From: Scytonema hofmannii PCC 7110
GTDB taxonomy: Bacteria > Cyanobacteriota > Cyanobacteriia > Cyanobacteriales > Nostocaceae
DNA: 64,000 nt
NCBI RefSeq assembly: GCF_000346485.2
Contig: NZ_KQ976354.1
Coordinates: 4,980,436 to 5,044,435 of the forward strand
Direction of reading: 5' to 3'
Below the pieces are notes generated by a model, which worked only from the letters and a program-made list of their open reading frames with translations, did not search any database and was not told the DNA's origin. The translations under genes and the position numbers were made by a program. Within the stretch, counting starts at the first letter, position 1; every line of letters begins with the position of its first letter. Shown piece by piece: positions 34,035-36,737 of the stretch.

Positions 34035-34042
34035 TCACTGAT
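34008..34042. repeat. STRR heptamer array (GGTCACT)
   Basis: About five direct copies of a 7-nt unit (TGGTTAC/TGGTCAC). The minus-strand stop codon of crtH (TGA at 34035-34037) lies inside it. Confidence 0.85.
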
Positions 34043-35525
34043 TCAGCCCCAAATCAACAGCGATACGATGAGCACAAGCAAACCCAGAAAATGCCACTGC
34101 GTTTAAACCCTGACCGGGAAACGTACTATCTCCCACACAATAAAGCCCTGAAATTGATGTTCTGTTGAAAGGCATTCCCAACAACCCTCGCAACTTCTGT
34201 CGGGGGATTGGTCCATAAGTACCATCATCACGACCTAAAAAGCGACGATGGGTTTTAGGAGTCCCCACCTCTAAATAATCCAAACCTGCATTTAACCCTG
34301 GAAAAATCTTTTCCAAACGATTAATTATTCTCCAAGCCGCCTGTTCTTTGTTTGCGTCATACTCACTTGCTGATAAACCCAGCCAGTCATCAATCCAGGA
34401 AGGTGTAAAAGAGTGAATGATGTGATATCCAGAAGGTGCTAACTCTGGGTCAAGCAACGTTGGAATCGACACAAATACAGTTCCTTCTGTCGCTGTCATC
34501 TTTTCCCAGTTTTCTAGCAAAATGTGATGGCACTCTGTCCCTGAAGGCAAAACTTCCGCTTTTACTCCCATATGCAAATTTAGAAAACTAGGTGACTTCT
34601 GATAGCGTTGCTGCCATCTTTTTTCATTAGAAGGAATTTCTTGTTGATTTAGTAATTTCTCAAAGGTATCCCATCGTGTAGCGTTTGAGACAATTCGTTT
34701 AGCACGATACACTTGACCGTTAGTGAGTTGTACACCCACAGCTTGTTTATTTTCTATGAGAATTTTCGAGACCTTGGCTTGATATTGAATTTGTCCTCCT
34801 GCTTTAATCAACCCTTCTGCTAATTTTTGAGCAATTTGTCCTACCCCACCTTTAGGATAATTGACACCTCCGTAGTGTCTATCTGAAAAAACCATTCCAG
34901 CATTAATCATGGGTGTCATCTGAGCAGGTACTACTGACCAGCAATAGCACTCTATATCAAGAAATCTTAACAATTGGGGGTCTTTAATATAACGCTTTGC
35001 CACATCCCCAACATTTTGAGGTAGATATTTTGCTAAACCAAGACACGCCAAAGGCTTCTGAAAAAAACTGCGAAGTAAATACCGGGGTTCCTCCAATGAC
35101 AGCAACTCCATACTATTGAGACAATGAAAGACTCGCCAACATTCATCATAAAATTGACGAATTCCTTTGCTCTCATGTGGAAAGTACGCAGTTAGATTTT
35201 GCAAAAATTCTTCATAAATGCGGTCAACTTTAATATCCAAACCTTCTGGTAAATGATAGTGAATTTGAACCGGATCGGGAATCACCTCTAAGTTAACATT
35301 GACAGATTGTAAGGCACGTGCAAGCAAGTTAGTCGTTCCTTTTTGCCCGAATCCAAATATCATAGATGCCCCAACATCAAATCGATAGCCCTCCCTCTCA
35401 AAATAACCAGCGCTACCCCCAGGGATTAAATATTGTTCCAGTAACAGCACTCTAGCACCCTTAACTGCTAATTGAGTTGCTGTTACTAAACCGCCTATTC
35501 CAGATCCAATAACTATGACATCCAT
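34035..35525 (-). CDS. crtH: carotene isomerase (prolycopene isomerase)
   Basis: A 496-residue flavoprotein of the CrtI/CrtISO family that converts poly-cis lycopene to all-trans lycopene. The FAD-binding motif '[21 protein letters not shown]' begins at residue 3. '[25 protein letters not shown]' and the C-terminal '[21 protein letters not shown]' are characteristic of cyanobacterial CrtH as against phytoene desaturases. Length matches the family. The stop codon is contributed by a heptamer repeat. Other carotenoid genes are not adjacent, as is usual in cyanobacteria. Confidence 0.92.
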
Positions 35526-35567: not shown

Positions 35568-35849
35568 TAACTAAATAACAAAAAAGAGGGACAAGCCAGA
35601 CGAACCCTGACCAATCCCGTTTGCCGATCCTTAAAGAGAGGAGAACACTGAACAACAATATAACCTTGATTGAGAATTGCTGTCAACTACTAATGCAAAA
35701 ATTTATCAACAAAAAACAAAGTAGTTGTCATAGTAGAAACCCTTCGTGCCACGCTATGTGCAAGGCACAGGCGTTCGCGTTCGCCATCAGGGCTGGACTC
35801 ACTAGGTGAAAGCTTAAAGGCTGGAGTGCGATTTGGTTGTCAAATATGC

Positions 35850-35855
35850 TAAAAT
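35850..35855 (+). promoter_or_regulatory. extended -10 promoter candidate
   Basis: TGC-TAAAAT at 35847-35855 is an extended -10 element that would start an RNA near 35862, just before the hairpin-rich stretch upstream of upp. There is no good -35 hexamer. Confidence 0.35.
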
Positions 35856-35861
35856 ATTCAT

Positions 35862-36046
35862 ATCAGTACAAGATTTAAAAACCTACCCCCGGACTGGGGG
35901 AAAGTCTACGCCCGAAACAACCTTGAGGAGACATCAGCACCCCCTTGTGGGAAAAGTGTTGAGCCTGGGAACCTGAGCAATCAGGATATTAAGATAGCGA
36001 TGTCTTAAGAATCTCTCAGCCTTGAGGCTGGAGATCGTCAAGATGT
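35862..36046 (+). ncRNA. structured RNA candidate upstream of upp (possible IS605 right-end guide-RNA remnant)
   Basis: Five hairpins follow each other: CCCCC/GGGGG (35886-35900), TCAGCAC/GTGTTGA (35934-35962), CCTGA-GCAA-TCAGG with a GNRA loop (35972-35985), AAGAT/GTCTT (35991-36006), and a 25-nt stem ATCTC-CAGCC/GGCTG-GAGAT (36011-36035). No ORF overlaps them. The end, CTTAAGAATC-hairpin-GTCAA, resembles the right ends of cyanobacterial IS200/IS605 elements, so this may be an orphan omega RNA left by a lost tnpB. Alternatives are an upp leader regulator or an independent small RNA. I cannot match it to a known RNA family. Confidence 0.5.
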
Positions 36047-36086
36047 TTCGGTCGTTACTTATTAGAAAAAGCGGCTATTTCCGGCT

Positions 36087-36737
36087 ATGACGCTACAATT
36101 GCGCGTATACGTTCCCCCTCATCCTCTGATAAAGCACTGGTTGGCAGTTGCTCGTGATGCTGGAACCCCCTCGGTGCTGTTTCGCAGTGCGATGACGGAG
36201 TTAGGACGGTGGCTGACTTATGAAGCAGCTCGAGAATGGTTGCCAACTCAAGAAACAACAGTGCAGTCTCCCTTAGATTCCTGTCCGGCAACTCTGATAG
36301 ATCCAACAGTACCTGTGGCAGTAGTACCAATTCTACGAGCCGGACTGGGGTTACTGGAAGGGGCGCAAACAGTTCTGCCCCTAGCATCAATTTATCATTT
36401 AGGATTGGTGCGAGATGAAGAAACTTTACAACCTCTGTGTTACTTAAATAAGTTGCCAAAAAAATTTCAATCGCAAACGCGAGTGTTGGTTACCGATCCA
36501 ATGCTCGCAACGGGTGGATCTATCATGGCGGCTATGGCAGAATTAACACAACGCGGTGTCGATCCAACTCAGGTTCGGATTATTAGCGTAGTTGCAGCTC
36601 CACCAGCTTTGCAAAAATTGAATGATGCTTATCCTGGCTTAATTGTTTACACGGCCACCATCGATCAAATGGTCAACGATCGCGGTTTCATTGTACCAGG
36701 TTTGGGAGATGCAGGCGATCGCATCTTTGGAACATAA
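36087..36737 (+). CDS. upp: uracil phosphoribosyltransferase
   Basis: A 216-residue enzyme that makes UMP from uracil and PRPP (pyrimidine salvage). The PRPP-binding motif is 'VLVTDPMLATGGSIMAA', and the C-terminal uracil-binding region is 'RGFIVPGLGDAGDRIFGT'. 'PILRAGLGLLEG' is also typical. Length matches the family. The gene starts about 40 bp after the structured RNA candidate. Confidence 0.93.
   Translation: MTLQLRVYVPPHPLIKHWLAVARDAGTPSVLFRSAMTELGRWLTYEAAREWLPTQETTVQSPLDSCPATLIDPTVPVAVVPILRAGLGLLEGAQTVLPLASIYHLGLVRDEETLQPLCYLNKLPKKFQSQTRVLVTDPMLATGGSIMAAMAELTQRGVDPTQVRIISVVAAPPALQKLNDAYPGLIVYTATIDQMVNDRGFIVPGLGDAGDRIFGT

Follow-up and report, generated by a model that had tools for sequence, protein, structure and literature searches.

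TnpB guide RNAs are usually regarded as by-products of the tnpB mRNA. Stand-alone ωRNAs are already known for IscB; such copies, and HEARO RNAs without an ORF, reportedly occur in Ktedonobacter and are said to have been proposed to act in trans. TnpB together with its ωRNA cuts the donor joint, composed of the TAM plus the guide, and promotes retention of the element (PMC8612924). The ωRNA (reRNA) of ISDra2 is a right-end RNA ending in TCAA followed by a guide taken from the host flank (PMC8612924, PMC10097598), with a pseudoknot in which positions -5 to -3 pair with positions -103 to -105, and with a UUUA loop on its last stem (PMC10097598). Short gene-less elements with IS605 left and right ends, known as PATEs or IS605-derived MITEs and thought to be moved by a transposase in trans, have been described from Halanaerobium (PMC7290912) and Haloquadratum (PMC3119063), and are treated in both accounts as DNA ends only; the Halanaerobium PATE-like element keeps the tail of tnpB and a 160-nt right end (PMC7290912). 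RAGATH-18-derived reRNAs of IS607 TnpB are guide RNAs placed at the end of the tnpB gene, and in the accessible text of that report an upstream tnpB is always described (PMC11061315).

The window analysed here, by which we mean the whole stretch of 64,000 nucleotides from Scytonema hofmannii PCC 7110, contains between a divergent oxidoreductase gene and upp a sequence that very probably represents a stand-alone TnpB ωRNA (35863-36041, plus strand) in a decayed non-autonomous IS605 element. The locus as a whole is best explained, with high probability on the sequence comparisons below, as an IS200/IS605-family non-autonomous element that has lost tnpA and tnpB and retained a complete ωRNA gene with its own promoter. 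Like the ISDra2 ωRNA, that of the window ends in TCAA followed by host sequence. The first-pass annotation had placed a five-hairpin RNA here with coordinates that are right within a few bases, the scaffold occupying 35863-36041 and the guide starting at 36042. The parts of the RNA are as follows.

35863-36041, plus strand: ωRNA (reRNA) scaffold, stand-alone, with 5' leader TCAGTACAAGATTTAAAAAC; covariance match (model R1) at 35883-36041 with 161 bits, covariation, leader conservation.
35886-35900, plus strand: stem 1, CCCCC/GGGGG, with the invariant loop GGACU; double changes in 4 of 5 pairs, 95% of cells paired.
35892-35894, plus strand: 5' strand GAC of the pseudoknot, partner GUC at 36037-36039; nearly invariant, 98.4% paired (21 sequences), ISDra2-like geometry.
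35934-35962, plus strand: stem 2, TCAGCAC/GTGTTGA; double changes in 5 of 7 pairs.
35972-35985, plus strand: stem 3, CCTGA-GCAA-TCAGG, with a GNRA tetraloop; double changes in 4 of 5 pairs, 99% paired.
35989-36008, plus strand: stem 4, TTAAGA/TCTTAA; double changes in 3 of 4 outer pairs.
36012-36034, plus strand: stem 5, the right-end hairpin, TCTC.CAGCC-TTGA-GGCTG-GAGA; double changes in 5 of 9 pairs.
36037-36041, plus strand: right-end terminus GTCAA, whose GTC is the 3' strand of the pseudoknot; the element ends after 36041.

Folded on its own, the sequence reaches -56.1 kcal/mol, a modest z of -2.0 against dinucleotide shuffles, and Rfam gave no relevant match to the window feature, either at the gathering score or at permissive E-values; the case consequently rests on comparison with homologues. 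All five consecutive stems proposed beforehand are present, with covariation in homologues as their main evidence, and the proposed GNRA tetraloop is the GCAA at 35977-35980, with GNRA-type loops prevailing in homologues. What the first-pass annotation overlooked is the pseudoknot, and the inserted DNA extends further left, to about 35743. As in ISDra2, the pseudoknot joins the bases 5' of the guide to the loop of stem 1 (GGAAU in ISDra2, GGACU in the window), and the last stem carries a UUUA loop in most homologues of the window ωRNA. In a set of 21 sequences (13 stand-alone and 8 tnpB-linked or tnpB-derived), 94.6% of the cells were paired and 22 of 37 pairs had changed on both sides, a result matched by none of 500 shuffles; when the partner strands were slid along in these 21 sequences, pairing fell to 34-46%. 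A further 85 matches, mostly stand-alone, showed double changes in 28 of 34 pairs, a count that refers to model-fitted sequences, many of them related. Homologues devoid of compensatory changes had been named beforehand as the outcome that would speak against a structured RNA; with 22/37 and 28/34 pairs affected, the compensatory changes are strong. The alternative of a random intergenic sequence with fortuitous stems, which might be suggested by the z of only -2.0 and by the silence of Rfam, has a negligible probability: covariance matches with E-values of about 1e-37 occur in many genomes with compensatory changes, so that chance stems are ruled out by covariation and homology. Related ωRNA copies are not independent of one another, and the conservation of the stems could partly reflect inheritance from tnpB-linked parents rather than selection in the stand-alone copies.

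A scaffold of this kind also sets the locus apart from two other groups of guide RNAs. It shares with the stand-alone IscB ωRNAs and HEARO RNAs the absence of an adjacent nuclease gene; scaffold and nuclease are those of IscB there and of TnpB here, and the HEARO model of Rfam had no match to the window. The RAGATH-18 reRNAs, likewise TnpB guide RNAs, differ in being of the IS607 type with another scaffold (PMC11061315), and they too had no Rfam match in the window.

The region 35840-36070 was used as a DNA query against related genomes, and multi-copy homologues with differing flanks were found. They are of two kinds: either the 3' part (35908-36041) lies over the end of tnpB and the right end, or the copy is free of tnpB and carries a leader and an extended -10; the window copy is of the second kind. 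Query positions 69-202 (35908-36041) are 75-86% identical to tnpB-linked copies, such as L008, L012 and L021. A search of copies for flanking tnpB genes and a covariance search of cyanobacterial genomes had both been proposed beforehand, and both came out positive: some homologues have this scaffold lying across the 3' end of tnpB, and 98 of the 120 related genomes contain matches to the covariance model, many of these matches overlapping a tnpB 3' end. At the window locus no tnpB is present, and the nearest 3' gene is upp; a 47-aa frame at 35833-35976 resembles, on comparison with L018 and L042, a leftover tnpB 3' end more than a gene.

The leader pattern was found in 92 stretches of GTDB genomes; among the 80 titles listed, all are cyanobacterial and represent at least about 37 genomes, including Crocosphaera watsonii WH 8501, Calothrix PCC 7103, Brasilonema, Nostoc, Microcoleus and Westiellopsis. 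Upstream sequence of 1.3 kb or more was available for 52 leader loci, and among these an adjacent tnpB in the same sense is present only in L174 and its IMG/VR duplicate L254. Judged from these matches, gene-less ωRNA elements are widespread in cyanobacteria. A single recent ancestor of the stand-alone copies cannot be claimed, since a tnpB clade (L174, L109-L111) has the same leader inside its coding end.

Several individual copies deserve mention. Two ωRNA matches lie head to tail in L101 (1501-1802, G083) and in L209, forming tandem stand-alone ωRNAs. Two IMG/VR viral contigs, L255 (5475-5647, minus strand) and L256 (1435-1607, minus strand), share a stand-alone ωRNA, its guide ACAGATACAGATGTGT included, next to an apparent thymidylate-kinase frame; these are possibly phage-borne guide RNAs. 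In Microcoleus and relatives, the stand-alone ωRNAs L031, L119, L221 and L169 occupy an apparently orthologous site and have the common guide ATAATCGCC(A/G)CGTATC. In locus L025 (G032:C195), a group II intron reverse transcriptase/HNH frame is followed after about 120 nt by a stand-alone ωRNA; the origin of the feature as the 3' end of such an intron was rejected, as the feature contains no intron domain and other copies have no reverse transcriptase nearby.

The borders of the mobile unit were obtained by pairwise comparison (a slash marks a junction). The units are about 300 bp long, start with TTAT/AAG or TTAT/CAA, end with TCAA, and have the layout TTAT/LE-promoter-ωRNA-TCAA/guide, where TTAT is the left boundary in most copies with a detectable boundary. 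The identical autonomous elements L038 and L039 of genome G007, in which a Y1-type tnpA frame is divergent to tnpB, diverge from each other exactly at the TTAT/AAG and TCAA/guide borders, and the stand-alone copies of G007 have both their left end (LE) and their right end (RE) in common with them. The family accordingly has both ends of an autonomous element, of which the window copy keeps the RE and part of the LE. The terminal TTAAGAATC-hairpin-GTCAA (about 36005-36041), earlier likened to the right end of an IS200/IS605 element, is indeed the right end of an IS605-type element. Insertion takes place 3' of a fixed motif without target duplication, as seen from the TTAT boundaries and an empty site, the window copy's own left junction being lost; as in ISDra2, a short T-rich motif precedes the target site, TTAT here and TTGAT in ISDra2.

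The elements of the known PATE type raise the alternative that the window copy is an inert PATE or MITE, for which only the DNA ends matter, the ωRNA sequence being passive, moved by TnpA in trans, and the RNA having no role. PATE-like IS605 elements consisting of ends only are known (PMC7290912), the left tip of the window copy is gone, and the TnpB clade matching its ωRNA most closely is seemingly missing from the host genome. Yet stem 1, the pseudoknot loop, the leader and the promoter all lie outside the right-end hairpin and are paired or conserved in stand-alone copies, whereas a passive spacer would be expected to have decayed. We consider this alternative rather unlikely. The present family differs from the PATEs of PMC7290912 and PMC3119063 in that its ωRNA scaffold is complete and, together with leader and promoter, has been conserved in many cyanobacteria, with covariation.

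The features surrounding the RNA in the window are listed below.

35736-35742, plus strand: GAAACCC, the last block common to the left flank of the G001 empty site (alignment to L032); probable left deletion junction.
35743-35862, plus strand: degenerate left end, tip and TTAT missing; absent from G001, 35810-35862 aligning to the LEs of relatives.
35847-35855, plus strand: extended -10 promoter element TGCTAAAAT of the ωRNA.
36042-36057, plus strand: predicted 16-nt guide GATGTTTCGGTCGTTA, or as many as 20 nt (to 36061); by the G001 empty site, host sequence from the upp 5' region.
36087-36737, plus strand: upp, uracil phosphoribosyltransferase (Pfam UPRTase, 8e-72), 45 nt downstream of the ωRNA.

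The stand-alone subset is characterized by the common leader TCAGTACAAGA (also given as TCAGTACAAGAYNTNAAAAC) with an extended -10 upstream. The leader is conserved in 72 of 72 pattern loci, for which it was itself the search criterion. The extended -10 noted beforehand is located 7 nt ahead of the TCAG at 35863, and in 58 of 74 distinct stand-alone copies the motif TGnTAnnnT ends 7-9 nt before TCAG (shuffles: mean 0.77, maximum 5); these copies are related, not 74 independent cases, and their left ends differ widely. The predicted transcript start lies at about 35862-35863, and transcription of the ωRNA from its own promoter is probable. Compared with ISDra2, the window ωRNA has no overlapping tnpB, and it has its own extended -10 and a shared leader.

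The insertion at upp was reconstructed from the congeneric genome G001, whose upp region is free of the element and displays the empty site AAAGTATTAT/GATGTTTCAGTCGTTA (TATTAT/GATGTTTCAGTCGTTA, in short form TATTAT/GATGTTTC). Homology between the window and L032 ends after GGAAACCC and restarts at GATGTTTC, at 36042. The motif GAGTATNATGATGTTTCAG upstream of upp is conserved in about 20 genera, with sites of the TATNAT/GATG type. Based on the G001 empty site and this conserved motif, the right border is exact and the guide consists of host DNA that starts at 36042, directly 3' of the right end, with the TAM present in the empty site of G001 and similarly in relatives. The claim of an orphan ωRNA persisting without tnpB is well supported, the scaffold, pseudoknot and right end being as in tnpB-linked copies and the sister genome providing an empty site. 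On the left side, the copy has lost TTAT, the outer part of the left end and some 20 bp of flank. Its 35810-35862 is still 70-76% identical, over about 50 nt, to left ends from G007, and GAAAACCC is found inside the left ends of relatives; we infer a deletion between short repeats, namely GAAACCC in the flank and GAAAACCC in the LE. Since the tip of the left end and TTAT are deleted, the window copy can probably no longer move. The upp copy is, on this comparison, a lineage-specific insertion, and the state of G001 fits precise excision and a site that never held the element equally well.

Two further observations concern the neighbourhood of upp. In L136 (G017, upp locus, reverse complement), an LE-like remnant with 82.5% identity over 40 nt to the left end of L005 lies about 150-190 nt upstream of upp, together with ATGTTAAAATA upstream of upp and no ωRNA; an element of this type may have reached the upp promoter a second time and then decayed. 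In the window, a near-consensus promoter TTGACA-18-TATATT (35657-35686, minus strand) faces the divergent FAD-dependent oxidoreductase gene (34035-35525, minus strand), and AATATAACCTTGATTGAGAAT, which flanks this promoter, is conserved in relatives.

The position of the ωRNA bears on a further alternative, in which the RNA is a domesticated upp leader, acting as a 5'UTR regulator (for example riboswitch-like) or kept because it supplies the upp promoter. The RNA precedes upp by 45 nt and has its orientation, a terminator scan found no terminator between the two, and insertion plus deletion removed the TATTAT that precedes GATG in relatives, such that upp may depend on the -10 of the element. 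This TATTAT looks like a -10 box, and through insertion and deletion the element's promoter has probably taken the place of the upp promoter. As a conserved regulator, however, the RNA fails: none of the other 29 upp loci tested, that of the congener included, has an R1 ωRNA match, by which a conserved upp riboswitch or leader was rejected; members of the family adjoin many unrelated genes, and structural conservation tracks the ωRNA family and not upp. The upp leader suggested by the first-pass annotation holds as to position and, probably, as to supply of the promoter, and not as to a conserved role; domestication as an upp leader we regard as improbable.

The proposed mechanism, in which the element supplies its own guide, involves a TnpB acting in trans. 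The host genome has one element with both tnpA and tnpB, with a Y1 match at G000:C1:4114562-4114915, tnpB (L042) from 4115048 and the candidate left end TTATCAACGGCGGGCAAGCCCC of the TTAT/CAA type. The RuvC residues D-E-D of the L042 TnpB are intact by alignment (GIDVG, REDLN, HAD). This TnpB belongs to a related clade: it is 44% identical to the TnpB of L022, whose ωRNA is among those most similar to that of the window, and the ωRNA of L042 itself scores 63 bits with the R1 covariance model versus 161 for that of the window, which makes productive pairing uncertain. Further tnpB-free copies of the scaffold are present in the host genome (L036, L102). A 44-nt fragment of the ωRNA 5' part (84%; L004 1501-1544, minus strand, G000:C1:7340950-7340993) is situated at the 5' end of an apparent ftsY frame, and a right-end fragment of the window ωRNA family (L002/L035, G000:C1:5320137-5320225) forms an in-frame fusion with the end of a WD40-repeat gene. 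With an intact host TnpB of a related clade, the trans-acting guide proposed beforehand is a plausible reading of the window ωRNA. We consider ωRNA function in trans about evenly balanced for the family, and somewhat doubtful for the window copy.

In the own genome, no second match to the guide was found at up to one mismatch, and matches with 2-3 mismatches were fewer than with the reversed-pattern control. The DNA TTAT-GATGTTTC is absent from the host; the congener has it upstream of upp, with a single mismatch to the guide, at position 9, and other genera have nearly this sequence there. The following course of events is proposed. An element would have inserted 3' of TTAT in TATTAT/GATGTTTC upstream of upp, the first bases of the upp 5' region becoming the guide, and a later deletion would have stripped the left tip and TTAT from this copy. 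RNA polymerase would start at about 35862 from the extended -10, and the transcript would fold into the scaffold of stem 1, pseudoknot and stems 2-5. A TnpB encoded elsewhere in the genome would bind the ωRNA and cut DNA carrying TTAT plus GATGTTTC (predicted target form TTATGATGTTTCGGTCGTTA), that is, the upp allele without the element, which would favour retention or homing of the element; read-through into upp would let the same promoter supply upp mRNA. Under the established TnpB model, a stand-alone ωRNA with its own promoter would allow a gene-less element to exploit a foreign TnpB for its retention.

Gene-less IS605 elements are already known. Our literature search, which was partial and leaves an earlier description possible, found no account of promoter-driven stand-alone TnpB ωRNAs, and as far as the literature was searched a conserved family of this kind is apparently undescribed. 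Taking all observations together, we tentatively propose as a serious possibility that widespread cyanobacterial "guide-only" IS605 elements, encoding promoter-driven TnpB ωRNAs of about 180 nt, parasitise in trans the TnpB (and TnpA) encoded by other elements, the landing site providing each with a guide for cutting its own empty site, and that the upp copy has also replaced the promoter of a host gene and targets a sequence upstream of upp that is conserved across about 20 genera. If true, a conserved tnpB-free ωRNA family driven by its own promoter would imply that nature has repeatedly separated guide RNA from nuclease, like crRNA and Cas, and would provide ready-made trans-acting guides as well as a tractable model, in culturable Nostocales and Crocosphaera watsonii WH 8501, for non-autonomous elements exploiting a nuclease in trans. 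A possible vertical retention of L031, L119, L221 and L169 at their apparently orthologous site may offer a handle on function, and the upp case illustrates that the promoter of a housekeeping gene can be the landing place of an element of this kind and may even be taken over by it.
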